Made by a program: the position numbers and the translations under genes | The notes under the pieces: model-generated | Seen by the model: only the letters and a program-made list of their open reading frames with translations | The model's database searches: none | Told to the model about the DNA's origin: nothing | Origin: Kovacikia minuta CCNUW1 | GTDB lineage: Bacteria; Cyanobacteriota; Cyanobacteriia; Leptolyngbyales; Leptolyngbyaceae | Direction: 5' to 3' | Assembly: GCF_020091585.1 (NCBI RefSeq) | Contig: NZ_CP083582.1 | Location: 3,968,001-4,032,000 of the forward strand | DNA: 64,000 bases | Part shown: positions 39,032 to 55,003 of the stretch, piece by piece | Position numbering within the stretch: position 1 is the first letter of the stretch | Layout of the letters: the number at the start of each line of letters is the position of its first letter

Positions 39032-40579
39032 TCAGGTCTCGTCTAAACTCCCCGATCGCCAGAGTTTGATCGTCCGATCGCAGCCACCGCTGATGAGCAG
39101 CTTTCCATCAGAACTGTAAAGCACAGAGGAAACCGAACCCGAATGCTCAGAAAGGGTGCCCAGGAGTCCCTGATGCACGTGCCACAGCTTGATGGTCTGG
39201 TCTTTGCCACCGCTGAGCAACTGTTGGTTGTCAGGACTGAAGGCGATCGACGAAACCCCATCAGCATGCCCAACTAAACGATTCAGTGGCTTGCCTGTTA
39301 CCAGGGAATACTCATTCCAAAGCTCAATCTCTCCGTTATTGCTGCCTGTGGCAAAGAACCGACCGTTTGGGCTAATGGCAATCGATAAAATCTCGCTAGA
39401 GTGCCCCATCAGCGTTCGCAGAAGTTCCCCGGTTCGCAAATGGTACACCTTAACCGTGTGGTCGTCACTACCACTCAAGACCATCTGCCCGTCTGGGCTA
39501 AGGGCAATGGCTTGAATAGGAGAAGCGTGTCCATCCAAAGTCTGCGTTATCTCTCCAGTCCTCAGGTTCCAGAATCGCAGGGTTCCATCTAAACTTCCAC
39601 TGACAAGGGTTTGTCGATCGGGACTGATTGCCAGCGATCGGACACCGCCTGTATGTCCCTTCAGGGTCCGAAGCAGATCCCCTGTCCGCAGGTGCCAGAG
39701 GTGGATGGATTGATCTTCGCTACCGCTCGCCAACAGTTGCCCGTCTGCACTCAGAGAAAGGCACCAAACTGGGCCAGTGTGCCCGGAGAGGGTACAGAAT
39801 TGTTTAAGTGTCCGCAGATTCCACAGATGAAGGGTGGTGTCCAGGCTGCTACTGGCAAGAATTTTGCCATCCCGACTGAGGGCGATCGCAGTCACAGCCT
39901 CAATGTGACCACTCAGTGTTTGCACACATTTCCAGGGAAGCGGTTTGGGAGGTGGGGATGGAGTTGTTGGTTGGGCAGATACAGCAGTTGAACTGGACGC
40001 CTGGGGTGAAGATTTTGAATGGGCGGTCGTTGTTTGACGCTTGAATTCCTGTTCAAACCGCTCTCGGACACTATTTCTCCTCGGATTGGAGGTTTGTTTA
40101 GCTGATGATTGATCTAAACCTAATTCTTTTGCTTTCTTTAAATCCGATTCTGCACCCAGTTCAAATCCCAATAGAGAATTCACAAATCCCCGGTAGCGAT
40201 AGGCTTCAGCATAATTGGGATGCAGCCGAATTGCCATGCCAAAGTCTTCCAGGGCTTCCTTATACTTCCCAGCTTTGACATTCTCTGCACCCTGGTTGTA
40301 GAAAACTTCTGCTCTGGTCGTTTTGCTGCTCACCACCGTTTGCGGCGATCGGCTGGAGAAATTTTGAGTTGAGGCTTCAGACTGGTAGTTCCTCAGCAAT
40401 TGGTACGCTTCGTTAATCTGCTTAATTTTTTCTTCTGCCTGTCGCTTCAGTTGGGGATCTTGGGAGAAGCGATCGGGATGCCAGATCTTAGCGAGATTGC
40501 GATAGGCTTGCTTAATCTCTGCCTGAGATGCACCGGGTTGAAGTCCCAAAATTTCGTAATACTGCTTAATCTCACTCAT
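39032..40579 (-). CDS. DnaJ-TPR-WD40 fusion protein
   Basis: The 515-residue protein starts with a J domain (1-65) including the HPD motif (IWHPDRFSQDP), which stimulates Hsp70 ATPase. TPR-like helices follow (about 88-150; FYNQGAENVKAGKYKEALED), then a Ser/Thr/Pro-rich linker, then seven WD40 repeats (about 210-510; for example TLSGHIEAVTAIALS, TLKGHTGGVRSLAIS, KLWRSG at the end). Seven repeats make one closed propeller. The WD40 and TPR parts would bind clients and the J domain would recruit DnaK. No dnaK is nearby. The frame is complete. Confidence 0.93.
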   Translation of the reverse strand: MSEIKQYYEILGLQPGASQAEIKQAYRNLAKIWHPDRFSQDPQLKRQAEEKIKQINEAYQLLRNYQSEASTQNFSSRSPQTVVSSKTTRAEVFYNQGAENVKAGKYKEALEDFGMAIRLHPNYAEAYRYRGFVNSLLGFELGAESDLKKAKELGLDQSSAKQTSNPRRNSVRERFEQEFKRQTTTAHSKSSPQASSSTAVSAQPTTPSPPPKPLPWKCVQTLSGHIEAVTAIALSRDGKILASSSLDTTLHLWNLRTLKQFCTLSGHTGPVWCLSLSADGQLLASGSEDQSIHLWHLRTGDLLRTLKGHTGGVRSLAISPDRQTLVSGSLDGTLRFWNLRTGEITQTLDGHASPIQAIALSPDGQMVLSGSDDHTVKVYHLRTGELLRTLMGHSSEILSIAISPNGRFFATGSNNGEIELWNEYSLVTGKPLNRLVGHADGVSSIAFSPDNQQLLSGGKDQTIKLWHVHQGLLGTLSEHSGSVSSVLYSSDGKLLISGGCDRTIKLWRSGSLDET

Positions 40580-40689
40580 TCATGCTGCCTTCGCATTTTG
40601 GGTAGACAGAGTGTTCTTAAAACAGCATTCCCCAAAATCCCTCATTCCATCCGGTTGGTCTGCGGTTAAGACACCGGGGTTTTTATAAC

Positions 40690-40720
40690 AGGTGGTAGGT
40701 GGTAGGTGGTAGGTGGTAGG
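40690..40720. repeat. Heptanucleotide GGTAGGT repeat
   Basis: Four copies of a 7-base GGTAGGT unit lie between the DnaJ fusion and the phytochelatin-synthase-like gene. Confidence 0.85.
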
Positions 40721-40773
40721 GTTGAGTCAACTGATATAAGAACCCCGTTTCTGCGACTGTTGAAAGAGCTGAG

Positions 40774-41514
40774 TTATTCTTTGCGCTTGACCAGAACAAA
40801 TCCTCTGGTCTTGCCTGAAACAGAATCAACGGCTAACATCGCCTGCCACAGTTCTGTTGCTTTTACCCAAACGGGTGGATATTTGTAGCGCGACACATCC
40901 AGAATCAGAAACCGATCGGTTTGCTGGTTGTAGGCGGCGATCGGGGAAATATGCCCCCCCTTCTCTTCACCGATCGCTTTGCGTAGGTAGTTGGCTAAAA
41001 CAAAGTTATTCGGCTGCTGCAAATTTTCCACAACCCGCTGCCGGAATTCGTTAATGGTCAGATCTCCAGCGTGATGAACCTGGACATCAACGGGATGGGT
41101 CGCCAGCAGTTGACCTAGTTGATCCAGTGTCATCCCCTGACGCATCACAATGTCAGGACTGAGAACCTTGCGCGTTTGCTCATTATTGAAAAAATCTTCT
41201 TGCGTAAACACCCGGTAGGGCGAATACCGGGGATCTTGAGGCGCAGGAATGGCTAACGAATTCAGCACCATGACCATGCTGGCAACGCCACAAAAGGATT
41301 GACTATTTTGCGTCACAAACTGAATGCTAAGAGGCCAATAGTCTTCTCTAGCGTTGCTTTCAAGCAATAATTGTGACCCCTCGCGAGAATTAAAATTGAT
41401 CAGGTTACTTGGCAAAGGCAAGGTTTGGGTCAGTGCATTGCCACCGGATAGACATAACCCCACAATCGCCGCTCTGAGCAGGAATCTGAGCGATCCGATT
41501 CCCCGAAATACCAT
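40774..41514 (-). CDS. Phytochelatin synthase-like peptidase, probably exported
   Basis: About 246 residues. Catalytic triad positions of the papain-like phytochelatin synthase fold are visible: Cys in QSFCGVASMVMVLNSL, His in GGHISPIAAY, Asp in FLILDVSRYKYPP. Bacterial members lack the Cys-rich C-terminal domain of plant enzymes and mainly remove glycine from glutathione, with weak phytochelatin synthesis. The N-terminus has a hydrophobic signal-like segment (FLLRAAIVGLCLSGGNALT). ATG at 41514 is chosen because AAGGAG sits 6 bases upstream; the frame extends to 41535 without a site. Confidence 0.87.
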   Translation of the reverse strand: MVFRGIGSLRFLLRAAIVGLCLSGGNALTQTLPLPSNLINFNSREGSQLLLESNAREDYWPLSIQFVTQNSQSFCGVASMVMVLNSLAIPAPQDPRYSPYRVFTQEDFFNNEQTRKVLSPDIVMRQGMTLDQLGQLLATHPVDVQVHHAGDLTINEFRQRVVENLQQPNNFVLANYLRKAIGEEKGGHISPIAAYNQQTDRFLILDVSRYKYPPVWVKATELWQAMLAVDSVSGKTRGFVLVKRKE

Positions 41515-41713
41515 GCGAATCTCCTTTACAGTCAATCAACGATCGTTAATTTCCAGATATAGCATAGGCAGGTTGCTGCAATCGTCCTGGATTATCAATC
41601 CAAAATAATTTCAGATGGATCAACGAATGATTTAGGACTGCTATAGATTCCTCCTGGGACATGCCGCATCATAGGAACGTTATGATGTGGAGAAAGCTTT
41701 AGATCAACGCATC

Positions 41714-42352
41714 ATGAGTACAACAATCGATGCACCCACATTGTCGCTGGAAAAGGTTCACCGTTTGCTGAGGTTCCAGAGACAGGGCGATCAATCCATT
41801 GTGTCCTTGTTACGTTTAGAACCTTTGACAGAACAGGAACAGGCAAGACTGGAGGAAATTCGGCGTAACTTTGCAATTTACTACGAAGAGTCCAAGATTC
41901 TAGAAGGGCAGGTTCAGTTTCTATTTCTGTCGCCGCTCATGTGGCTGGCTGGATTTCATTCACCCAGAATTCAAATCTCTCTAGAAGTTGGCATCGCGGA
42001 AATCGAAACCAGTGATGCAGATACTCTTATCAAAGGTCGGATGGATATTTTAGCGACGAAGAGACTCCGGGGAGAAAACGAAACTCATTTACTCTGGGTC
42101 TTATTGATTGAGTCAAAAAACAGCAGCGTTGATGCTACCGAAGGTCTGCCTCAACTCCTCACCTACGCCTACAGAGGTTTAGGGCAACAACGATCGGTTT
42201 GGGGATTGACAACCAATGGGATGGATTACCAGTTTGTTTACATCCAGCAAGGCGATCCGCCAACCTACCAGCTATTCCCAAAACTCAGTCTGCTGTATTC
42301 TGAGCAATCCAACCAGTTATTGCAGGTTCTAAAGGGAATTTGTGATTCCTGA
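41714..42352 (+). CDS. Putative PD-(D/E)XK-fold restriction-type nuclease
   Basis: The product of about 212 residues resembles the small cyanobacterial proteins related to type I restriction subunit N-termini. A PD-(D/E)XK core is suggested by Asp in LIKGRMDILATK and Glu-x-Lys in LLWVLLIESKNSSVD, followed by a Gln-containing helix (EGLPQLLTYAYRGLG). The middle strand TNGMDYQFVYIQ is also typical. No methylase or helicase gene is nearby. ATG at 41714 (MSTTIDAPTLSLEKV) is preferred; a GTG at 41687 is possible. Its 3' end overlaps the convergent glcF by 24 bases. Confidence 0.7.
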   Translation: MSTTIDAPTLSLEKVHRLLRFQRQGDQSIVSLLRLEPLTEQEQARLEEIRRNFAIYYEESKILEGQVQFLFLSPLMWLAGFHSPRIQISLEVGIAEIETSDADTLIKGRMDILATKRLRGENETHLLWVLLIESKNSSVDATEGLPQLLTYAYRGLGQQRSVWGLTTNGMDYQFVYIQQGDPPTYQLFPKLSLLYSEQSNQLLQVLKGICDS

Positions 42353-43822
42353 ATCTTGAAGCGGAATGCCACGGATCGAGTAATCTAACAGTTGCACCGG
42401 GTGCAGTACCGGAACATTTTTGCCCTGGAGCTTCAAATGTCTGCTGATTTGCACAAAACAGCCAATGTTTGCCGAGGCAATGACGGAAGCGCCTGTGTTT
42501 GTTAGATTTTCTGCCTTCTGGCGACCGAGTTCTTCCGCAACTTCTGGTTGCAGAATGTTGTAAACCCCCGCACTGCCGCAGCAAAGTGCCGCATCCACAG
42601 GTTCCCGCAATCGCACCCCCGGAATTTGCTTCAGGAGTTGGCGGGGTTGAACACTAATTTTTTGCCCATGCAGCATGTGACAGGCATCCTGATAGACCAG
42701 GGTTAGCGGTTCATCCTGTAATGGCGAAAGGGGGACAGTTAGCCCTACGTCTGCCAGAAACTCCTGCACATCCCTGACCTGATTTGCAAATGCTTGAGCT
42801 TTCTCGCTGTACTGCGGATCGTTGCCCAGAATGTTGCCATATTCCTTCAGGGTGTGCCCACAACCGGAGGCATTGACCAGCACATAATCCACACCGGCAT
42901 CAGCAAAGGTGTCAATCATCTGACGGGCCAGGGTTTTGGTTTGTTCTTCCTGTCCCTGATGGTGGGTGAGGGCAGCACAACACCCCTGGGATGGGGGAAT
43001 TACGACCTCGCACCCATTCGCGGTCAAAACTTGCACTGTGGCATTATTGACCTCTGGATTAAACAGGCGTTGGACACAACCCAGAATCAGACCGACTCGA
43101 TATCGCTGGTTGCCTTGGGCTGGAATCAGGTCAGGCAGAGTGTCCTGGAACGCCTGAGCCGGAATCGCAGGTAACATCGCCTCCATTGCGCCCAGTTGGG
43201 ATGAGAGGTGCTTTAGAAAATCGAGCGATCGCACCCATTTCTGCAATCCCGATTTCTGGTAAATCCCCAAAGGGCGTAGCATCCAGCGCATCCGGTTGGG
43301 ATAGGGAAAGGTGGAGAAGATGAGCTGACGCAACAGTTTTTCGGGAAGCGATCGCTCGTGATGACGCTCCACCTGTTGGCGGGTTGACTCGATCAGCTTG
43401 TCATACCTCACCCCAGAGGGACAGGTCGTAACACAGGCAAGGCAGCCCAGACAGGAATCAAAATGCTGCACTGTAGTAGGGGATAGGGGAATTTCCCCTT
43501 CATTTACCCCGTCCATCAAGTAAATCCGCCCTCTGGGAGAATCCATCTCCTTGCCAATCACCCGGTAACTGGGACAGGTAGACAGACAAAAGCCACAGTG
43601 AACACAGGTGTCGATAATTTTGGGGTCGGGGGGAGAGAGGGAATCAAAGGATGAGGGATGGGGGATGGGGGATGAAATGAGGGATGAGGGATGGGGCATG
43701 GGGGATGAATCAGATTTTTCTTTTTCATCCTTCCGCCCTCCGCCCTCCGTCCTTCTTTCATCCCTCATCCCTCCGCCCTCATCACTCTTCGATGCTTCTG
43801 TATTCTCGTAACTCGTATTCAT
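42329..43822 (-). CDS. glcF: Glycolate dehydrogenase iron-sulfur subunit
   Basis: The 497-residue subunit carries two [4Fe-4S] motifs (CVHCGFCLSTCPSYR and CLGCLACVTTCPSGVRY) and CCG domains (SQGCCAALTHHQGQ, ASGCGHTLKEYG, CCGSAGVYNI). With GlcD and GlcE it oxidises the photorespiratory product glycolate to glyoxylate. It starts 3 bases after glcE, so the two are co-translated. The first 70 residues are a Glu/Arg/Ser/Pro-rich extension encoded by GGGATGG-type heptamer repeats (43620-43790). A start inside or after the repeats is possible, but no better start codon is evident. GlcD is not in the window. Confidence 0.92.
   Translation of the reverse strand: MNTSYENTEASKSDEGGGMRDERRTEGGGRKDEKEKSDSSPMPHPSSLISSPIPHPSSFDSLSPPDPKIIDTCVHCGFCLSTCPSYRVIGKEMDSPRGRIYLMDGVNEGEIPLSPTTVQHFDSCLGCLACVTTCPSGVRYDKLIESTRQQVERHHERSLPEKLLRQLIFSTFPYPNRMRWMLRPLGIYQKSGLQKWVRSLDFLKHLSSQLGAMEAMLPAIPAQAFQDTLPDLIPAQGNQRYRVGLILGCVQRLFNPEVNNATVQVLTANGCEVVIPPSQGCCAALTHHQGQEEQTKTLARQMIDTFADAGVDYVLVNASGCGHTLKEYGNILGNDPQYSEKAQAFANQVRDVQEFLADVGLTVPLSPLQDEPLTLVYQDACHMLHGQKISVQPRQLLKQIPGVRLREPVDAALCCGSAGVYNILQPEVAEELGRQKAENLTNTGASVIASANIGCFVQISRHLKLQGKNVPVLHPVQLLDYSIRGIPLQDSGITNSL
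43620..43790. repeat. Heptamer repeats in the N-terminal coding region of glcF
   Basis: Tracts of GGGATGG and GATGAGG (7-base units) and CCGCCCT-like units are read in frame at the start of glcF. Confidence 0.85.
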
Positions 43823-43825
43823 TCT

Positions 43826-45200
43826 TCAAATTCCCCCTACAAATCGGTGGGGACTTAACTGGGAATGGGGGTCAAACTGCTGCTTGATTTTTTGCATAAG
43901 TTCCAGTGCATTTCCGGGATAGCCCCAGATGTCTATTTTCTGTTTGAGTGAGGTGGGAGCCTGGAGAATTGAGAGAAATCCTCCGTGGGACTGACACTGG
44001 TGGCGAATTTTCAACAGGGTTTCAGTAGGAACTGCTTCGTCAAATACAAACCTTCCCAACCCACTGGCAGCGTGGATCTGACCCAGCCAGCCTAATACGT
44101 TTAAGTCCTCAATCTGTTGCAAAACGCGCACAGCTTCTGATGGTCTTACTCCTATTTTGCAGGTAATTAAGCCTTCCCAACCGGCAGCGGTCATTTGATC
44201 TCGCAATCGTTGCCATAGGTCAGCCTCGTCTGAATTGGAAAAGGAGGAATGGGCAAGACCTAATTGGTTGCCCAGTTCAGTTAAGTGATGGGTTTGTTCT
44301 TGCACGCTGGCAGGAATACTTTGGAACCGGACAATCAACCCCATTCCTGCTCCAATCTGGAGGTCTTCAACGATCGAGGCTGAAAGCAGATCGGCGGCTG
44401 TGGGGGTGAGGGCTGAGTTGAGTAAGATTGGGACTGCCTGAGCGATCGCCCCTGCTTCCCCACTGAGCACAACGGTCTGCGCACGCTTCTGGCATGGGAT
44501 AAACCCGAAATGTAACCTGGGTGAGAATACCCAGGGTGCCGTAGGAACCTGTGAATAACTTCATCAGGTCATAGCCCGCCACATTTTTGACGACCCGCCC
44601 CCCGGCTTTTGCCATTTGCCCATCCGCCCGCACAAAGGACACCCCCAGCAACATATCTCGCACACTGTTGTAGCATTGCCGCAAAGAACCGGTATCCGCT
44701 GTGGCAACGATTCCGCCGATCGTGGCTTGCTCTGGATAGGCAGGGTCGATCGCCAAAAACTGCCCTACCTGCGCCAACTGCTGCTGCAATTCCGCAAACC
44801 TTACGCCCGCCTCCACCGTTACCGTCAAGTCCCCTACCGCATGTTCAATCACCCGATTCAAATTCTTTGTACTCACCACAATCAAAGGCGAAGCAGCACT
44901 TTTATCCTTTATCCTTTCGCCTTTATCCTTTCCCCCAACCATTCCTCCCCAGTTCAACTTACTCCCTGCGCCACAGGGGAGAATCTGCCAGCGGTTCTGA
45001 TAGGCAGATTGGATGACTGCTGCCAATTCTGTCGGATTGTTGGGGTAAACAATCCGGTGAACCTCGGCATGGGGTGCGATCGCATGTTTGATGCGTTCCC
45101 GCTGGTCAGAACTCAACGCTTCCCAGGTTGTGATGCCAGAAGCCCCAACGATCTCTTCCAGGGCTTGAAAATCCGTAGTCTTTTCTGAACTAGTTTCCAT
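43826..45200 (-). CDS. glcE: Glycolate dehydrogenase FAD-binding subunit (frameshift near 44486)
   Basis: The repaired product is about 457 residues. It has the FAD-binding type 4 domain (PCGAGSKLNWGG; EQATIGGIVATADTGSLRQ; GGRVVKNVAGYDLMKLFTGSYGTLGIL) and a C-terminal domain ending just before glcF. An extra G near 44486 splits it; removal gives PEACQTVVLSGEAGA. ATG at 45200 (METSSEKTTDF) is chosen over an upstream TTG at 45230. A heptamer repeat (TTTATCC-type, 44901-44935) adds a Lys/Asp/Glu-rich loop after the FAD-binding glycine motif. Confidence 0.88.
44901..44935. repeat. Heptanucleotide TTTATCC repeat inside glcE
   Basis: About four copies of a 7-base TTTATCC-type unit lie in frame, encoding a charged loop. 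Confidence 0.85.
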
Positions 45201-45340
45201 GCAGCGATCGCAGTAGCTAAGATTGATCAATCATATAGCGCTCCTGGCTTGGGTTGTGAGAAATGTCTTGCCATCAGCGGTCAGCTGATCGCTGCTTCCC
45301 CTAAAATCAAAGTATTGACTCAACCCCTCACCAAGTTGCC

Positions 45341-45928
45341 ATGACCTCAGCCACCGATCGGCTCATGACCCTGGAAGCGTATCTCACCTATGACGATGGC
45401 ACAGAGACCCGCTACGAATTGGTGAATGGGGAATTGGTTGAGGTGCCCTTAGAAAGTGATTTGAATAACCTGATTTCCCTATTCCTGCTGGTGCAGTTTC
45501 TACGCTTTGTCCCGGTTCAACGCCTGCGCCACAAAGATACTGAAATCGCCGTTACAGGTGCGCGGGCGACGGTGCGCATTCCCGATCTGATCGTACTGAC
45601 GGAAGAAGGGGCTGCTGCCTTGAGTGGAGCCAAACGCAGTATCATTACCGCTGACATGCCACCCCCTGCGTTGGTGGTAGAAGTTGTATCGCCTGGAAGC
45701 AGCAATCAGGAGCGCGATTATCGTTACAAACGGTCGGAGTATGCCGCGCGGGGAATTGCGGAATACTGGATTATCGATCCGCAACAGGCGCAGGTAACGA
45801 TCTTAACGCTGGTCGCAGGGTTTTATGAAGTGGCGGTCTATCGGGAGCGCGATCGCCTCATTTCTCCCCTATTTCCGAACCTGGAATTGACAGCGACCCA
45901 GGTGTTACAAGCAGGTACCAATGAGTAG
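45341..45928 (+). CDS. Uma2-family (DUF820) putative nuclease
   Basis: The 195-residue protein has the family pattern: MTLEAYLTYDDGTETRYELV, VRIPDLIVLTEE, PPPALVVEVVSPGSSNQERD, YRYKRSEYAARGIAEYWIID. PALVVEVVS carries the acidic metal-binding residues of the PD-(D/E)XK fold. It is divergent from glcE with a 140-base gap. Unlike the other two copies in the window it belongs to the subgroup with the GIAEYWIIDPQ ending. Confidence 0.9.
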   Translation: MTSATDRLMTLEAYLTYDDGTETRYELVNGELVEVPLESDLNNLISLFLLVQFLRFVPVQRLRHKDTEIAVTGARATVRIPDLIVLTEEGAAALSGAKRSIITADMPPPALVVEVVSPGSSNQERDYRYKRSEYAARGIAEYWIIDPQQAQVTILTLVAGFYEVAVYRERDRLISPLFPNLELTATQVLQAGTNE

Positions 45929-46032
45929 CAGAGAACTCAAGCTGCCTGAGCCAGTTCTCATTCACATATAGCAGGTGTCAGGGAATCAATTGCCAGTGAC
46001 AAAAGGTCTCAGGGCGACAAGATGTCTTAACT

Positions 46033-46455
46033 TCACTTGAGAAACAGGCGGGCTTTTCCTGGACTTTTGGGATTAACAAACAACTGATGTTTCTTAGGAT
46101 CTAGCAAAACATCCATCCCCCCCATCGGAATCGCTCCCAGCAACACATCTGTCTCGTTAGCCACGACTAATGCTTCAACGGTCGTCCGGCGATTCTGAAA
46201 TCTCACCTCTATTGGACCCGCCACATCAAGCTGGACGATTGAACCGTCTGCCAATTCTGCATCACCTTCTCCTAGAATCCTCAACCCAAGCTGATTACAA
46301 ATTGACTGAGGAATTGACAGCATTGAAGCTCCGCTATCAACCAGGGCTGAAACTTTTAATTTTCTAACCTGATCTTCTGACAGATAACCTCTAGCGACCA
46401 ATGCCAGATCATCACTGTTCACAAGTTCGAGTTCGGCGTAGGTAATTCCCATCAC
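46033..46455 (-). CDS. Clan AA retropepsin-like aspartyl protease
   Basis: The 140-residue protein has the catalytic motif ALVDSGASMLSIP and a second hydrophobic-hydrophobic-Gly block (VLLGAIPMGGMDVLLDP). One such domain is half of a pepsin-type enzyme, so it should work as a homodimer. Small soluble members like this are common in cyanobacteria, often near toxin-antitoxin or Uma2 genes, and their substrates are unknown. Confidence 0.85.
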   Translation of the reverse strand: MMGITYAELELVNSDDLALVARGYLSEDQVRKLKVSALVDSGASMLSIPQSICNQLGLRILGEGDAELADGSIVQLDVAGPIEVRFQNRRTTVEALVVANETDVLLGAIPMGGMDVLLDPKKHQLFVNPKSPGKARLFLK

Positions 46456-46623
46456 TGGCAGCGCTCTGGACTAAATCGCTTCTACTCAAATTTTAGAGGA
46501 TAGCTGAAGGAAGATCGCCGATCAAGCGCGATCTCCATTGGGGAGGAGGGGCGATCGTCCGTTTAAGCGATGGAGGGAGACTATAATCGATGCAGCACCA
46601 TTTAAGTCTTACCGGAGAAGCAG

Positions 46624-47757
46624 GTGTCAGAAGGCGCTATTAAGATCTTTTATTCTTACTCTCGCAAAGACCTTGATATGCGGAATACGTTAGAAGATCA
46701 CCTTGCGGCTTTGAGGGAAGCAGGCAGAATTAGCACCTGGCATGACCTTGAACTGGAAGCAGGTACCGAGTGGGAGCCAGCCATTTTGAGTAAGCTCGAC
46801 ACGGCAGATATCATTTTGTTACTGGTCAGTCACAACTTTATCGCCTCGAAATACTGCTATGGCACAGAACTGAAGCGGGCGATCGCCCGCCATGATGCCG
46901 GAACAGCGCGGGTGATTCCGATCATTCTGCGCCCCTGCGACTGGAACCATTCCTGTGTGCCCTTTAGCAAATTGAATGTTTTGCCAACCCACGCGATACC
47001 GATTACTAAGTGGGAAAACCGGGATGATGCGTTTGCGATCGTTGCCCAACGAATTAGGGAGACAGTTGATGAACTGCTGACACAGAAAAAGTTGGCAAAG
47101 CAGCAGGCATGGAAACAGCCCCAGAAGCAGAAGCAAGCGGTAGATGCACTAGAGCAATGGCTACAACTATCTATACAGAATTACCCACAGCAATCTCCGA
47201 CAGCTTTAACACTGCTCAACCAAGGGAGAATAGCTGGTATTCCATTGGACTCGAATTCAAGCAATTCCTTCGAAGAGGATCTAAGTTCAGACCGAGGAGT
47301 AGAATACACCCGACTGCTAGATTTGCTGAAAGCAGGGCAGTGGAAAGAAGCAGACAGGGAAACCTACCGAATAATGATCTTTTCTGTGGGTAAGCGAGAT
47401 GGTGACCACTTTGCTGATACCGATTTTTTAAATTTACCCTGTGAAAATCTTCAAGCGATAGATTACCTCTGGGCAAAATACAGCAGTGCGAAGTTTGGCT
47501 TTAGTACACAGAAGAGTCTTTACTTACAAAGTGGCGGCGATTTGAATGGTGGTTGTCCAAGCGATAAGGTTTGGGATGAATTCAGCGATCGAGTTGGCTG
47601 GCGAAAGGATGGTGCTTGGCTTGACTACGATAACCTTATTTTCAGTCTAGAGGCCCCACCAGGGCACCTTCCGCGTTTCTTTACTCGTGCTGTATATAGT
47701 TGGAAAGGAATGGGAATTTCCTGTATAACTGCAAGACTTGCGAAGTGTAGTAAGTAG
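46624..47757 (+). CDS. TIR-GUN4 fusion protein
   Basis: The 377-residue protein joins an N-terminal TIR domain (about 1-145) to a C-terminal GUN4 domain (about 225-350). The TIR part starts IKIFYSYSRKDLDMRNTLED and has LLVSHNFIASKYCYGTELKRA, where the Glu matches the catalytic Glu of NAD-cleaving TIR enzymes. The GUN4 part has LLDLLKAGQWKEADRETY, LPCENLQAIDYLWAKYS and KVWDEFSDRVGW. GUN4 binds porphyrins and stimulates Mg-chelatase. GTG start at 46624 is supported by a GGAG site. The combination suggests a tetrapyrrole-sensing input controlling a TIR output; this is inference. Confidence 0.88.
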   Translation: MSEGAIKIFYSYSRKDLDMRNTLEDHLAALREAGRISTWHDLELEAGTEWEPAILSKLDTADIILLLVSHNFIASKYCYGTELKRAIARHDAGTARVIPIILRPCDWNHSCVPFSKLNVLPTHAIPITKWENRDDAFAIVAQRIRETVDELLTQKKLAKQQAWKQPQKQKQAVDALEQWLQLSIQNYPQQSPTALTLLNQGRIAGIPLDSNSSNSFEEDLSSDRGVEYTRLLDLLKAGQWKEADRETYRIMIFSVGKRDGDHFADTDFLNLPCENLQAIDYLWAKYSSAKFGFSTQKSLYLQSGGDLNGGCPSDKVWDEFSDRVGWRKDGAWLDYDNLIFSLEAPPGHLPRFFTRAVYSWKGMGISCITARLAKCSK

Positions 47758-47980
47758 TAGGGTGGGCGCTGCCCACAACATATTCCTCCATATCCATACC
47801 CTCAAACATCAAGAAGCACGATCTCTTGCCGTCGTATTTGCAACCGCAGGTGCAATCGTTCCTCGCCGTAGTTTGGGTTATATCTTCTACAATTGGTTCA
47901 ATTGGTTCAACTGGATCGCTGTTGAAATAGTAGATAAAGATGTTGGTGTCGAGTAGATAACGGCTATCGGTTCCATTCAT
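47681..47980 (-). pseudogene. Truncated VapC-type PIN domain
   Basis: The first 21 residues are a clear PIN start (SRYLLDTNIFIYYFNSD), but the rest (Cys-rich, with CTCGCKYDGK) does not match VapC, and none of the later acidic residues appears. The frame runs into the 3' end of the TIR-GUN4 gene on the other strand. A small AACCAATTG-type tandem repeat marks the point where homology stops, near 47895. Start overlaps the end of the antitoxin gene, as in intact pairs. Confidence 0.65.
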
Positions 47981-48191
47981 CTCTCAACTGCCGTTGAAAC
48001 TGGAGTGGATCAATTCGTCGGGGTAAAAAGCCAAATAGATTGCTTGATGGAGGTGCTGTTTTAAGAGCAGTCTGCGGCATCGGTTGCACAACAATGACCA
48101 TCTCAATTAAACCCGGTTGAATGACATCAGGCAAAGTGATTTCTACCTTGCGATCGCCCTTAACCTCAATTACCTGACGAATAGTTTCCAT
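47964..48191 (-). CDS. VapB-like antitoxin of the broken pair
   Basis: The 75-residue protein begins METIRQVIEVKGDRKVEITLPD and ends with PLQFQRQLRDEWNR. This is the pattern of small antitoxin genes placed before PIN toxins in cyanobacteria (a beta-rich front and a C-terminal helix that binds the toxin). It overlaps the truncated toxin frame by 17 bases. Retained without a working toxin, it could act as an anti-addiction orphan. Confidence 0.65.
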   Translation of the reverse strand: METIRQVIEVKGDRKVEITLPDVIQPGLIEMVIVVQPMPQTALKTAPPSSNLFGFLPRRIDPLQFQRQLRDEWNR

Positions 48192-48312
48192 TATTAGCTA
48201 CAAAAACGTTCTTCTATCAGGATAGATTAGGAGCAGAATGTTGACATATACTACTCCCATCGTAGGGGAATAGATTTTTCGTTGGAAATTACCTGAGGCA
48301 AGAGCTTCGCGG

Positions 48313-48891
48313 CTAACCGGATGCAAAACTGAGCCAACTGAATAGTTCTGCGATCGTCAGTTGCCAATCGCCTAAACTGGCTAGAACAGTGAGTTGATCG
48401 GTATCTTCATCCCGTGCTACAGGTTGTTGATTGGGTTGAAAGATGATCACCGTTCGTTCTTCTGGATCAATTAGCCAACCCAGCTGAGTGCCATGATTCA
48501 GACAGAACAGAATGTTGTTAATCACCCGTGTGGGGCGTTGATCCGGCGAGAGGATTTCGATCGTCCAATCCGGGTAAATCAAAAACTGATTTTCAACTTC
48601 TCCCGCCTGATTTAGGGGAATTCGTCCCCATTCAAACACGGTGATGTCAGGTACCAGCGATCGTCCCCCAAACGTACAGCGGAGTTCGGTAAAGGCGCAG
48701 CCCAGCCGTGGTGGTTCCAGAATTCGATTAATCTCGCTGGGGAATCGAGTTTGTAGACGGCTGTGTTTTCCTTGGGGCATGGGCTTCTGATAAACGCGAC
48801 CGTCAATGTATTCACTGGCGGGTTTCGTTTCCGGTTGCCTGAGAAACTCTTCCAGAGAAAGGGTTGGGGATGAAGGTAATCGGGTCGTCAT
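48313..48891 (-). CDS. Uma2-family (DUF820) putative nuclease
   Basis: The 192-residue protein shows LSLEEFLRQPETKPASEYIDG, CTFGGRSLVPDITVFEWGRIP, IYPDWTIEILSPDQRPTRVI and GTQLGWLIDPEERTVIIFQP. PDWTIEILS is the PD-(D/E)XK-type acidic motif. It is the third copy of the family in the window and closest in pattern to the copy at 10.5 kb. Confidence 0.9.
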   Translation of the reverse strand: MTTRLPSSPTLSLEEFLRQPETKPASEYIDGRVYQKPMPQGKHSRLQTRFPSEINRILEPPRLGCAFTELRCTFGGRSLVPDITVFEWGRIPLNQAGEVENQFLIYPDWTIEILSPDQRPTRVINNILFCLNHGTQLGWLIDPEERTVIIFQPNQQPVARDEDTDQLTVLASLGDWQLTIAELFSWLSFASG

Positions 48892-48979
48892 TCTTTATTC
48901 CTCCTACAGTCATGTTAAGGCAGAAAAGGTTTGATGCTTTTCTACCTTCTGCCCTCTGCCTTCTGCCCTTTGCCTGCTC

Positions 48980-51249
48980 TTAACGTTTCTTGCCAAACTT
49001 AGATTTCAAATCTTCCAGGGTAGCGGGTTTCGATTGGGATTGGGTTTCTTTGGGTTTACGATTGGGTGCTCCGGGTGTCTCAGCCGCGCGTGGATCAGTG
49101 GTGCGCATGGAGAGGCTGATGCGTTTCAGTTTTTCATTCACTTCCATCACGCGCACTTTCACGACCTGCCCCACCTTCACAATTTGTTTGGGGTCACTGA
49201 CAAAGCGATCGGCAAGTTGGGAAATATGCACCAGTCCATCCTGATGCACACCGATATCAACGAATGCGCCAAAGTTGGCAACATTGGTAACAATGCCCTC
49301 CAACTCCATCCCTACCTTCAAATCAGAGATTTCTTTTACCCCTTCCTTGAAGGTGGCGTATTTAAACTCGGCGCGGGGGTCGCGACCGGGTTTTTCTAAC
49401 TCTGCCAGAATATCGCGGAGAGTCGGTTCACCCACCGCATCAGTGACGTATTTCTTTAATCCTGTCGATTTGAGTTGCGCAGCAATCTGGGTGATCTGAG
49501 TGAGGGGAAGTTTCAAATCGGCAGCGATCGTTTCCACCACTTTGTAACTTTCTGGATGGACGGCTGTGTTATCTAACGGATTGTCGCCATTGCGAATGCG
49601 CAAAAATCCCGCTGCCTGTTCAAACGCTTTGGGTCCCAGTTTTGGCACTTTCAGAAGGTGACGGCGATCGCGAAATGCCCCATTTTGATTGCGATAGGAC
49701 ACGATGTTGTTGGCAATGGTGGGCGTAATCCCAGAAACGAACGTCAGCAGTTCCTTGGATGCGGTGTTGAGATCGACACCAACATAATTCACGCAGCTTT
49801 CAACGGTTTCATCCAGTTTCCTTTTTCAGCAATTTTTGATCCACATCATGCTGGTACTGCCCAACGCCGATGGATTTCGGATCGATCTTGACCAGTTCTG
49901 CCAGCGGATCTTGCAGGCGGCGACCAATGCTAATCGCCCCCCGCACCGTCACATCCTTGTCGGGAAATTCGGCGATCGCCACCGCACTGGCAGAGTAGAT
50001 AGAAGCTCCCGACTCATTCACGATCACCTTAACGGGCTTTCGCTCCAGGGTTGTTAGCACTTCACCAACAAACTCATCCGTTTCCCGTCCGGCGGTGCCA
50101 TTGCCGATCGCAATCAGTTCAATCTGATGTTTCTGAATCATCTGGATTAGAGTTTGAGCCGCCTGCACCCGCTGGTTAGCAGCCTGGTGGGGAAAGATGG
50201 TCTGGTATTCCAGAAATTGACCCGTTTGATCCAACGCGGTGACTTTGCAACCGGTACGAAAACCAGGGTCGATCGCCAGAGTTGGTTTCATCCCGGCAGG
50301 TGCCGCCAGCAATAATTCCCGCAGGTTCGCCTCAAAGGTTTTGATCGATTCAAAATCAGCTTCCTGTTTCTTTGCCGCCCGCACTTCAGTGGTGAGGGAG
50401 GTTTTCATCAGGCGGTTAAAGGCATCCTTCAACACTCTCGCGGTAAAATTCGCGAATTGGTTTCTGTTTGGTGCGAATCTCCTGGGATTCCAGATAACCT
50501 AAGACGGCATCCTGATCAAATTCCAGTTCCACAGTCAAAATTTCTTCCGATTCCCCCCGGTAGAGTGCCAGCAGGTTGTGGGGGGCGATCGTCTTCACCT
50601 TTGCCTGGTAGTTCCGATACATTTCGAACTTGGTCGAGCCTTCGGGATGGTCGCCCTTGATGCGGGAGGACAAAACGCCAGAGTCCATCAGGTAATCGCG
50701 CAGGTAGGCGCGTAGCTGTGCCTTTTCTGCCACTTCCTCCGCCAGGATATCAGCCGCTCCCTTGAGGGCGTCTTCAGCGGTGGCAACCCCTTTCTCGGCT
50801 GAAACGTACTTCATCGCCTCTTCCTCCAGGGATTTGGGGGCAGCCGTCGGGGTATTTAAGGCTTTGATTAAGTCTGCCAGGGGTTGTAAACCTTTTTCAC
50901 GGGCGATCGTGGCACGGGTACGCCGTTTGGGGCGGTAGGGCAGATAAAGATCTTCCAATTCGTTCTTTTGCAAGCAGGCTTCGATCTGGGCTTGCAATTC
51001 GGGGGTGAGTTTGTCTTGTTGGGCGATCGCCTGCAAAATTGCCTGTTTCCGTTCCTCCAGTTCGGTCAGATAAGCATAACGGTCAAACAAGTCCCGCAAC
51101 TGGGTTTCGGTCATCTCACCCGTGCGCTCCTTGCGATAACGGGCAATGAAGGGTACCGTTGCTCCTTCCGCCAGTAGTTCCAGCGCATTGCTGACCTGAA
51201 AAGGTTTGAGCGAAAGCTCGGTTGCCAGAAGTTGAGGAATGTTTAGCAT
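48980..51249 (-). CDS. tex: Tex-family RNA-binding protein (two frameshifts, near 50435 and 49823)
   Basis: Conserved Tex sequence runs through three frames. N-terminal helical domain with [15 protein letters not shown]. YqgF/RNase H-like core with [17 protein letters not shown] and [15 protein letters not shown]. Helix-hairpin-helix region ([14 protein letters not shown] and [15 protein letters not shown]). C-terminal S1 domain ([20 protein letters not shown]). Removing an extra A near 50435 and an extra G near 49823 gives a continuous product of about 755 residues, the normal length. Tex is a transcription-related nucleic acid-binding protein, homologous to eukaryotic Spt6. Confidence 0.92.
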
Positions 51250-51305
51250 CGCGATCGAGATTCAGAAGACCTTTTCTAGAATAGTGCGATCTGGGCTGAT
51301 CTTGA

Positions 51306-51442
51306 TGGTGAAGGATGAGGGATGAGTTTTAGTTTTTGAATTTTGAATTGAAGGTTCTCCGCATCCCCGCGTCCCTGCGTCTCCCTCTCTACTTTCTGCC
51401 CTCTGCCTTCACTTCGTCCTTTATCATTTATCCTTTCCTGCC
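51306..51442. repeat. Intergenic STRR-type repeats upstream of the sensor kinase
   Basis: ATTTTGA-type, CGTCCCTG-type, TTCTGCCC-type and TTTATCA/TTTATCC 7-base words in short runs, part of the dispersed repeat set. Confidence 0.7.
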
Positions 51443-51522
51443 CTCCTACCTGATGAGTTAGCTCTGTGGAGAAGCTGGGAACCCTATAGAAACTGAAATT
51501 GATGTAAATTCCCCTGTCCATA

Positions 51523-53713
51523 ATGAAACTCCAGCAGATCTTTAGAGGTAAGGCGTTTCCATTACAGATTGTCCTCATTGTTCCCTTCGTACTCCAGATT
51601 TTTGGAGCCGTGGCGCTTGTTGGTTATTTATCATTCGAAAATGGACAGAGAGCCGTCAATAATCTGGCAGAACAGCTTATTGATCGCACCAGTGATGTGA
51701 TCAACGAACATCTGAACTCCTATCTTTCCGTACCTCAAAGACTGAACCAGATCAATGCAAGTGCCATCCGCAGAGGAATATTGGATGTGCGTAACAGCGA
51801 AGTGTTGGGTAAGTATTTCTGGGATCAGATGCAGGCGCATGATCTGACCTTCGTTGGAATTGGATTAACCACAGGGGAAGGGATTGGGGCAATTCGCTAC
51901 GATGGCAAAACCGTTACGATCGATCGATTGGAAATCTGAGCGCCCCAATAGCGCCCGCACGTTTGCAACGAATGGTGCGGTCGATCGAATAAAAATAGTC
52001 GGAACCTACAACTACAATCACTTTACAGAAAGTTGGTACACTGCCCCCCTTAAAGGGGAAAAACCGACCTGGGCGAAAATTTATGTTTGGAATTCTCCCT
52101 TTGGTCCCTATTTATCTGCTTCTGCTGGACGCCCAATTTATGATGCCCAAAATCGCCTATTAGGTGTGGCTGATGCAGACATTCACCTGCTGAAACTGAG
52201 TGACTTTCTCCGCGGTTTGGATATCAGTCGATCTGGGCAGGTGTTTATTGTAGAGCGGGATGGTCACTTGATCGCGAACACAGGTGCAGAAAAGCCTTAT
52301 ACCCTTATCAATAAGGAAATTCAACGATTGCAGGCGATCAATAGCCCCAACCCAATCATCCAATCTATCGCCAAGTACATTCAAGCTTCCAATGGGTTTC
52401 AAACCATCACTCAAGATACTCATTTTCAGCTTGAGATTCAGGGGGAACGGTATTTTGTGAATGTTACTCCCTGGCAGGATCAGTATGGATTAAATTGGCT
52501 CATGGTATCAGGTGTGCCAGAAACCGCATTTATGGCGCAAATTAATGCCAATACGCGTACCACGATCGCCCTTTGCTTAAGTGCATTAGCTGTCGCCTCA
52601 GTGCTGGGTGTATTTACCTCTCGCTGGATTACACGTCCAATTCTTCGCCTCATTCAAGCCAGTAAGGCAATGGCATCGGGCAATCTCAACCAATCTGTAG
52701 AAACAAGTAATATTCGAGAACTCAATATCCTCTCCAATTCCTTTAATCACATGTCAGGACGATTAAACGAGCTGTTTACTGCATTAGAACACAGCAAAGA
52801 GGAATTAGAAAATCGGGTTGAAGCACGTACAGCCGAACTCAAAACAACCTTAAAGGAATTGCAGCGCACCCAATCCCAGGTGATTCAAAGCGAAAAAATG
52901 TCGAGTTTGGGGCAGTTGGTAGCTGGCGTTGCCCATGAAATCAATAATCCAGTCAACTTCATTCACGGCAACCTGAATCATGTGCAGGAATGCACGGAAG
53001 ATTTATTAGGATTCGTGCAGTTATATCAACAACAGGTTCCCCATCCTCCCGCTGAAATTCAAGTGGCTGCTGAAGACATCGACCTGGAATTTTTGCAGGA
53101 CGATCTTCCTAAAATGCTGGCCTCGATGAAACTTGGCACTGATCGAATTCGTCAGATTGTGCTGTCGCTGCGTAACTTTTCCCGTATGGATGAGGCTGAA
53201 TACAAAGCGGTAGATATTCACGAAGGCATCGACAGCACCTTGCTAATTTTGCAACATCGCCTGAAAGCCAAGCCGGAACAACCCGAAATTGAGGTGGTTA
53301 GAGACTACGACAGGTTGCCACTTGTGGAATGCTATGCCGGACAACTGAACCAGGTGTTTATGAACATTTTGGTGAATTCGATTGATGCGATCGAAGAGAA
53401 TAACGCGAAGCACACTTATCAGGTGCTTAAGGACAATCCAGGTCGGATCACCATTCGCACAGCGGTGATTGATGCAATGTGGGTAGAAGTGACGATCGCT
53501 GATAACGGAGGAGGTATTCCTGAGGAGATCCAGCAACAGATATTTGATCCCTTCTTTACTACCAAACCGCTTGGCAAGGGTACCGGAATGGGGATGTCGA
53601 TCAGCTACCAAATCGTTACCGAGAAACATAGTGGCAAGCTGGAGTGTGTCTCAACCCTGGGAGAAGGAACTGAGTTTCGGATTCGAATTCCCCTACGACA
53701 GCAAGTGATGTAG
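51523..53713 (+). CDS. Membrane histidine kinase with Cache-type sensor and HAMP (frameshift near 51930)
   Basis: The repaired product is about 729 residues. A transmembrane helix lies near residues 18-40, followed by a large extracytoplasmic sensor of dCache type (about 45-345), a second helix (near 350-370), HAMP ([20 protein letters not shown]), a coiled coil, and the transmitter. The transmitter has [50 protein letters not shown] and [15 protein letters not shown]. No receiver is attached. An extra A in a GGAAATC run near 51930 causes an early stop; removal gives [14 protein letters not shown]. Small ligands bind such sensors; the ligand is unknown. Confidence 0.9.
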
Positions 53714-53717
53714 AAGG

Positions 53718-53752
53718 GGGTAGGTGGCAGGTGGCAGGTGGCAGGTGGCAGG
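53718..53752. repeat. Heptanucleotide GCAGGTG repeat
   Basis: Four copies of GGTGGCA (7-base period) lie between the convergent kinase and transporter genes. Confidence 0.85.
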
Positions 53753-53761
53753 GAAGAAATG

Positions 53762-55003
53762 TTAATCAAGCAATCTTGTGCCTGCCAGATCTAACTGTTG
53801 AGTGGTGCCATTTTCCCAACGGCTTAATATGATGGCGTTGGTAATGTTTCCAGTGATATTCAGGATGGTTTTAAAGCCATCAATTAAGCGATCGACCCCA
53901 GCAACGATCGCGACTCCTTCCAGGGGCAACCCGGCGGCAGCCAGAACCGTGGTCATCATGATGATGCCCGAACCGGGGACGCCAGCGGTACTAAAGGACA
54001 CCAGAAAGGTGCTGAGGGCAATCGCCAGCAGTAAATCTGAGGTAACTGGGATGTGGTAAATCTGGGCAATGAACAGGGCATTAAAGCCTTGAAAGATGGC
54101 TGAACCATCCCGTTTGAGCGCAGTTCCCAGGGGAAGTGCAAAACTGGCGATCGCCTCATCCATGCCATAGCTTTCTTCCGCATTTTGGAGGGCGATCGGC
54201 AGCACCGCATTGGTACTGGCGGTGCCAAAACCGAGCGAAAAGGTGGGAAAGAAACTCTGGAAAAATTTAACCGGTTTGGCGCTCAATGCCCACAGGATCA
54301 GGACATACAGCGCCATCATCAAGGAAAATGCCAGGAATAGTCCCAGAATATAAAGTAACAACCGACCAATGACACCAAATCCCTGGGTTGCGATAACCGA
54401 GCTGATCAGGGCAAAAACACCAACTGGAGCGGTATACAGAATAATGGATAAAACCTTTTCAAAAATGGCGTAGATGCTTTCAATCAATGCGATAAAACTG
54501 GCTGCCTTTTCGCCTGCGAGTTGAATTCCAACGCCAATCAGGGCGGCTGAGAAAATGGTTTGCAGCAGGTTGCCCGTACTTAACGCCTGTAAGGGATTTA
54601 CTGGAATCAGGCTGATCAGCCAATCGATCAGGGATGGACGCTCTTGCACACTGGCAACGACGCCAACCGATAAACCAGACATGCCACTGCCAGGTTGCAG
54701 GAAAGTTGCGATCGCCAACCCCAAACAAACAGCGATTCCACTGGTGACCACATAGGTTGCCATCAGTTTAAGAATGTATCGTCCCACCTGGGATGCATCT
54801 CGCACCCGTGTTAAGCCCAAAATCAGGGACGAAAACACGATCGGAACCACAACAAACTGAATCAGGCGCAGAAACGCCTGTCCCAGTGGAGTTAGGAGAT
54901 AGTGATCTAACGGTGCGATCGCCACAGGTGCGAACCCATTCAGCAAAGCACCAAAAACAATCCCCACTCCCAGGGAAGCGAGGATTAGCGCAGATAAGTT
55001 CAT
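53762..55003 (-). CDS. Dicarboxylate/amino acid:cation symporter (GltP/DctA type)
   Basis: The 413-residue membrane protein has eight or more hydrophobic helices and the family motifs: VPIVFSSLILGLTRV near the N-terminus, a serine-rich hairpin equivalent in FGTASTNAVLPIALQNAE, FALPLGTALKRDGSAIFQG, and MMTTVLAAAGLPLEG followed by VDRLIDGFKTILNITGN in the last helices. Members take up glutamate or C4-dicarboxylates with Na+ or H+. The substrate cannot be told from the sequence. It is convergent with the sensor kinase. Confidence 0.92.
   Translation of the reverse strand: MNLSALILASLGVGIVFGALLNGFAPVAIAPLDHYLLTPLGQAFLRLIQFVVVPIVFSSLILGLTRVRDASQVGRYILKLMATYVVTSGIAVCLGLAIATFLQPGSGMSGLSVGVVASVQERPSLIDWLISLIPVNPLQALSTGNLLQTIFSAALIGVGIQLAGEKAASFIALIESIYAIFEKVLSIILYTAPVGVFALISSVIATQGFGVIGRLLLYILGLFLAFSLMMALYVLILWALSAKPVKFFQSFFPTFSLGFGTASTNAVLPIALQNAEESYGMDEAIASFALPLGTALKRDGSAIFQGFNALFIAQIYHIPVTSDLLLAIALSTFLVSFSTAGVPGSGIIMMTTVLAAAGLPLEGVAIVAGVDRLIDGFKTILNITGNITNAIILSRWENGTTQQLDLAGTRLLD

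Follow-up and report, generated by a model that had tools for sequence, protein, structure and literature searches.

Hypervariable tips of effector-linked GUN4 domains in cyanobacteria: probable CDR3-like diversification associated with a REP-type transposase, and a TIR-GUN4 protein as a putative frozen member

What does a GUN4 domain contribute when it is joined to a TIR effector? The question is raised by a gene on the forward strand of Kovacikia minuta CCNUW1, at 46624-47757 of the window, by which the whole analysed stretch of 64,000 nt is meant (contig NZ_CP083582.1, positions 3,968,001 to 4,032,000). The open reading frame encodes 377 amino acids between a GTG start and a TAG stop, and a Shine-Dalgarno-like GGAG (46614-46617, + strand) can be read in the sequence 6 nt 5' of the start codon; a leader coding for LPE(K/E)xV is common to four loci of the comparison (L047, L048, L049, and L051). 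The first-pass annotation described the product as a TIR domain fused to GUN4, with GUN4 acting as a porphyrin sensor that ties the effector to chlorophyll status. Both the fusion and the idea of a tetrapyrrole sensor are already published. The accessible part of Kaur et al. (2020; PMC7159879) describes the occurrence of cyanobacterial GUN4 with kinases, caspases, trypsin, and TIR and suggests tetrapyrrole sensing; the TIR-, caspase-, and kinase-GUN4 architectures presented there, and by Davison et al. (2005) as cited there, are the same as those considered here. In that part, the fusions are treated as fixed tetrapyrrole binders, and neither hypervariability nor a 3' element nor a transposase is mentioned.

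Pfam recognizes TIR_2 in residues 8-113 (46645-46962, + strand; E 3.8e-13) and GUN4 in residues 222-351 (E 1.3e-35), both above the curated cut-offs. The AlphaFold2 model, built from an alignment (A2) of 63 rows, has a mean pLDDT of 86.9, with values mostly above 90 in both domains, and its secondary structure places a long linker helix, possibly a coiled coil, at residues 133-186 (47020-47181, + strand). Foldseek matched the TIR part to the TIR domains of plant receptors, SARM1, and Cat1, and the GUN4 core (residues 222-350, with GHLP at its end; 47287-47673, + strand) to the crystal structure 4ykb (TM-score to target 0.80) and the porphyrin complex 4xkc. Sequence searches of the PDB returned GUN4 1z3x (E 2e-16) and, for the TIR part alone, the Cat1 TIR (9mud; E 9e-5). 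The annotated fusion is thus borne out by Pfam, by a confident structure prediction of both domains, and by the agreement of Foldseek with it. The Glu expected for NAD cleavage is also kept: the putative catalytic residue is Glu82 (codon 46867-46869, + strand) in the context YCYGTEL, and Glu stands at this place in all 28 aligned TIR rows. The TIR subgroup of the window protein has one added residue from Cys to Glu (YCxxxE vs WCxxE). In PADLOC, the TIR half matches Thoeris ThsB best (E 2e-50, residues 7-173); no ThsA was recognized by eye among the open reading frames at 40000-54000. Judged from its sequence, the TIR part is a TIR fold with a predicted catalytic Glu and a candidate suicide-type NADase. 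The retained Glu, the ThsB match, and a putative C-terminal input domain agree with the earlier description of a TIR effector joined to a sensor.

What the sensor part might bind depends on its ligand pocket. W192, F196, and R214 (Synechocystis numbering) affect porphyrin binding (PMC8967248), and N211 within the motif LxNxLR affects bilin binding according to the accessible part of PMC10156173. Alignment of the window GUN4 with 1y6i gives W192Y, F196L, N211F, and R214A, and LTNTLR is turned into RFFTRA. Compared with a canonical Mg-chelatase cofactor, the fold is present, while LxNxLR, W192, and F196 are absent; as far as alignment can tell, every GUN4 residue for which experiments show a role in ligand binding differs. 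Pfam aligns the window GUN4 only up to profile position 124 of 141, since its ligand-pocket segment has been replaced; the match of the canonical copy in this genome covers positions 2-141. The claim that GUN4 is recognizable across its length therefore stands for the fold and falls for the final ligand-pocket segment. At the site of the canonical motif lies the segment RFFTRAVYSWKGMGI (47674-47718, + strand), within which AlphaFold2 confidence is low at residues 355-360; the model has a C-terminal helix in the tail behind it.

It might still be argued that porphyrin or bilin binding by the fused GUN4 gates the TIR NADase according to pigment or light status. The GUN4 fold is intact in the AlphaFold2 model and the Foldseek comparison, the accessible part of Kaur et al. 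(2020; PMC7159879) suggests tetrapyrrole sensing for all GUN4 fusions, and the Chlamydomonas variant N219G, which lacks the bilin Asn, still binds porphyrin as far as the accessible text of PMC10156173 goes. However, four pocket positions are substituted in the window protein, and the segment is hypervariable in relatives, which no fixed cofactor explains. The pocket appears not to be conserved, the porphyrin-sensor reading of the first-pass annotation is weak and was not upheld, and tetrapyrrole gating is regarded as improbable. Diversified recognition fits the hypervariable ligand segment better than one fixed cofactor. The loss of the bilin motif was likewise noted for cyanobacterial GUN4 paralogs without LxNxLR (PMC10156173), where it is read as a loss of function; the variable replacement in fusions is not mentioned in the accessible part of that paper.

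This variability becomes visible when the GUN4 domains of fusion proteins are aligned, as nothing is common to them after GHLP or GELP. The variable region (VR) runs from the GHLP/GELP codons to a conserved 3' DNA element and takes the place of the ligand motif. In 96 genes, its length ranges from 22 to 154 nt and is evenly spread over the three values modulo 3 (32/37/27), and its coding strand is rich in G and T (G.415, T.331, A.140, C.114; in the GUN4 core, A.295 and G.274); homopolymer G runs are seen in some VRs. None of 92 VRs contains an in-frame stop, where shuffles predict 43.3 ± 4.1, which argues that the VR is translated and that the tail behind it matters. The effectors in front are diverse: among 81 VR-GUN4 proteins, there are 30 with NACHT, 21 with kinase, 13 with TIR, eight with caspase, five with FGE-sulfatase, and two with SEFIR domains.

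The mode of change can be read from closely related gene pairs. Up to the VR, tandem paralogs share about 97% identity; just past it they are 100% identical, and inside it they are unrelated. At locus L171, 2.6 kb separate two kinase-GUN4 genes; their identity in 50-nt windows is mostly 94-100%, drops to 48% in the VR window, and is 100% in the following 50 nt. The same pattern is seen for the pairs at L091 and at L224, where 5.3 kb lie between the two genes and identity is still 97-100% over 200 nt 3' of the element. Among the 168 gene pairs with a core identity of at least 70%, VR identity is near the shuffled level in the best 40. One 154-nt VR had no second copy in its own genome or in a congener. 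Together, these observations make the VRs look rewritten as blocks, with no template retained. Hypervariability was inferred from the comparison of paralogs and species, and this comparison demonstrates, at the level of sequence, that the VR is replaced wholesale between near-identical flanks.

Relaxed constraint, in which a dispensable GUN4 tail drifts fast and no dedicated diversification takes place, is considered extremely unlikely. It would suit the loop-like VR residues with their low model confidence and the decay of some copies, such as that in the window; however, it does not account for VRs at chance level in pairs that are otherwise about 97% identical and fully identical just past the VR, for the missing stops, or for a G/T bias that is strand-specific. 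Neutral decay of the VR is contradicted by the pair profiles and the absence of stops.

A source of the variation in a diversity-generating retroelement (DGR), or in gene conversion from silent cassettes, deserves attention, since cyanobacterial DGRs diversify the C-termini of C-type lectins in the same kinds of effectors (PMC7517822 for cyanobacteria, PMC10907252 for multicellular bacteria). DGR effectors and VR-GUN4 proteins share a hypervariable extreme C-terminus, the association with kinase, caspase, TIR, or NACHT proteins in complex bacteria, and machinery that is frequently missing at single target loci. They differ in the scaffold (C-type lectin vs GUN4), in the enzyme (reverse transcriptase vs Y1/HUH transposase, see below), and in the kind of change: DGRs mutate adenines against a template repeat, whereas VRs look block-replaced, with changes that extend beyond adenines and with free length and frame. 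No template repeat was found. The 154-nt VR lacks a second copy in its genome, only one of 92 VRs (that of L117) has a 15-mer in common with the rest of its locus, and template switching from the local flanks was not above shuffles except in two VRs. No reverse transcriptase occurs among the recurrent neighbors of 111 elements. Templating by a DGR or cassettes was set aside on the searched 154-nt VR and the shared 15-mers, and we hold it to be very unlikely.

The right boundary of the VR is set by a DNA element. A single element, TCTCTTCTCTCGCNNNGAGACTTGTNNACTGTAGCA, is read in three frames and so yields the tails SLLSHRDL, LFSRIETCKV, and SSLAQRLVTCKI; it is CT-rich, tagged with GTA(G/A), and predicted to form a hairpin of 4-5 bp. 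It was found in 28 of 58 relatives (up to 3 mismatches) and in 109 of 390 genomes of the class (up to 2 mismatches), and the reversed-pattern control gave 0 matches; 45 of the first 49 element copies sit directly 3' of a GUN4 domain. In the sequences compared, the element is conserved at the DNA level. The hairpin has weak covariation support, as its stem is nearly invariant and leaves too little variation for a signal of compensatory base changes.

Beyond the element, a second gene recurs. It encodes a Y1_Tnp protein whose nearest relatives are REP-associated tyrosine transposases (NCBIfam REP_Tyr_transpos, 69.6 bits, under the 80-bit cut-off), and its HUH and Tyr motifs are conserved in 27 full-length copies. 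The transposase gene is convergent to the GUN4 gene and lies about 60-430 nt downstream; in many loci it starts about 60-300 nt beyond the element. For the 103 elements with enough downstream sequence, a convergent transposase lies within 400 bp in 37 cases and a transposase on the same strand in none. Across the class, 63 copies belong to the subfamily (identity of 61% or more), usually one per genome. For 32 of these, one of the elements listed lies at a distance of 102-326 nt; of another 20 copies, 15 adjoin a GUN4 core with the element diverged or absent among the elements listed, and at least 47 of the 63 adjoin a VR-type GUN4 gene. By hand tally, the element is present in 46 of 64 genomes having the enzyme vs 63 of 326 without it (p 7e-16). 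These counts demonstrate an association, seen in genome sequences, of one transposase subfamily with VR-GUN4 genes. Clustering of the neighbors of 111 elements gave GUN4, the transposase, and a DUF559-like gene (8 loci) as the only recurrent genes. The last, VSR-endonuclease-like by eye, is flanked by two transposase fragments at L105 and L116 and adjoins one fragment at L047, and is placed as if inserted there. More distant relatives, about 50% identical to the transposase and often multi-copy, occur in a family of small genomes (f2: G097, G156, G203, G215, G250, G329, G350), in which no GUN4 3' element was found; they possibly represent a mobile ancestor.

The linked enzyme resembles the RAYT/TnpA-REP proteins of REPtrons (PMC8266576, PMC3733652) in being a low-copy Y1/HUH enzyme. 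TnpA-REP cuts at CT beside GTAG-tagged hairpins (PMC8266576), and the VR element is CT-rich with a predicted hairpin and GTA(G/A). The difference is that RAYTs belong to dispersed intergenic REPs, while the linked transposase is tied to one coding-gene family and a protein VR. It may be that the transposase is a mobile element that only targets or hitchhikes with the element and that VR turnover comes from another process, such as slippage of G/T-rich DNA or some other polymerase. In agreement with this, 66 of the 103 elements have no transposase nearby, and some VRs contain G homopolymers or, in a few cases, boundary duplications (L117, L101) that point to slippage or re-copying. The fixed convergent orientation and spacing, the usual single copy per genome, and the catalytic motifs conserved in the 27 full-length copies speak against it, as does the fact that most VRs are not simple repeats. 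This possibility is rated as rather unlikely.

The explanation we favor, and consider probable, is that effector-GUN4 receptors undergo junctional, CDR3-like diversification of their recognition domain, probably started by the transposase, with the window gene as a frozen member. In V(D)J joining, CDR3 arises between fixed coding ends by untemplated insertion of free length, all frames are sampled, and the product is a recognition loop. VR-GUN4 genes would share the fixed coding ends, an apparently untemplated insert of free length, the use of all frames, and a recognition loop; they differ in having a single site at the gene end, an HUH nuclease as the candidate enzyme, no RAG or TdT homologue identified, and a bacterial host. 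It is proposed that a GUN4-derived domain at the C-terminus switches an N-terminal death or signaling module, TIR in the window protein, and that the ligand-pocket segment of this GUN4-derived domain has turned hypervariable in analogy to antibody CDR3. The transposase would nick single-stranded DNA at the CT-rich hairpin element, and the freed left 3' end (after ...CACCTCCC) would be extended either without template or by a polymerase favoring G and T; only the G/T bias of the coding strand and left-boundary duplications in a few VRs (L117, L101) hint at synthesis in this direction. Rejoining of the extended end would create a new VR, and variants with an open frame would be retained and selected as binders. 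A phage or self ligand on the VR-bearing face of GUN4 might then turn on TIR, kinase, caspase, or NACHT signaling. Nicking, template-free extension of the left end, ligand recognition, and effector activation are steps that we infer. At the GUN4 gene beside a subfamily transposase at L204 (G273:C1:1959000-1967500), the VR is duplicated internally (GFLGVRRGS..GFLGVRRGS), as could result from several successive rounds of extension.

Several observations weigh against this diversification mechanism. Transposase is missing near the 66 elements mentioned and its subfamily from 63 element-bearing genomes, so the enzyme may work only rarely or in trans, disappear once it has been used, or have no causal role in the VR. 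No polymerase or terminal transferase was identified, and the window copy is decayed. Its VR-equivalent of 45 nt has lost the G/T purity (T17 G12 A11 C5), and behind it follows a decayed copy of the element, TCTTCTCTCGCNNNGAGACTTGTNNNCTGTA (47719-47749, + strand), which is translated as the C-terminal tail. It keeps 17 of 25 fixed bases, is the best + strand match in the 64-kb window, and lies at the expected place; only 16 of 20000 shuffled tails matched as well. The VR-equivalent and the decayed element are features of the VR-GUN4 family, and the transposase subfamily was not found in the window genome at E 1e-20. The decayed element and the negative search for this enzyme lead to the view that the window gene is a frozen member, whose specificity should now be fixed; hypervariability is seen in relatives, and past diversification in its own lineage is putative. 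The window genome (8.56 Mb) has seven GUN4 domains, one of them canonical; the six noncanonical ones are stand-alone paralogs, two caspase proteins, one FGE-sulfatase-containing protein, and the window TIR fusion. The only clean 3' element of the genome lies behind a caspase-GUN4 gene.

The TIR half tells of modular exchange. Relatives with TIRs about 76-85% identical carry at their C-terminus a GUN4 (about 40% identical to that of the window), an unnamed domain, or WD40, so TIR appears to be the constant module and the C-terminus exchangeable. The TIR-GUN4 relatives compared include those at L047, L048, and L050. A domain of about 150 residues with no Pfam match (..AKILFIKNVKHPEP..GDLMILHQ..VTHVVEFL..) was observed between TIR and GUN4 or behind TIR alone (genes L039:8653-10185, L042:8362-10047, L043:8442-9455) and is common to two distinct TIR subgroups. 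The surroundings of the window gene, partly assigned by eye, fit only in part the earlier description as typical accessory ground: Uma2, an aspartyl protease, and a broken PIN gene agree with it, whereas glycolate oxidase-like genes, Tex, and a transporter do not. Directly at the 3' end of the TIR-GUN4 gene, an antitoxin-like open reading frame is followed by a PIN-like toxin reduced to its N-terminal DTNIFIYYF part (47684-48191, - strand). A Tex-like gene (48980-51249, - strand), a histidine kinase gene (51523-53713, + strand), and a glycolate oxidase-like gene (43826-45230, - strand) are each split into two or three open reading frames in adjacent frames, which suggests assembly indel errors or local gene decay.

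To our knowledge, junctional and apparently template-free receptor diversity has so far been known only from vertebrate V(D)J joining. No paper joining GUN4 hypervariability with such a transposase was found in the open-access literature, and it may have been described elsewhere. That cyanobacteria possess an adaptive diversification outside DGRs, built on a domesticated REP-type HUH transposase and an apparently untemplated CDR3-like loop in effector GUN4, seems to us fairly likely. If this is true, bacteria would have invented junctional receptor diversity of this kind in addition to DGRs, a function would be found for GUN4 fusions and for a REP-type transposase, and the "innate" repertoire of TIR, caspase, kinase, and NACHT proteins would be directly testable as a diversified one. 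Engineering would also gain a compact diversifier that is site-specific. Should the enzyme assignment prove wrong, the hypervariable tips of GUN4 still need explaining, and they speak against a simple tetrapyrrole sensor.
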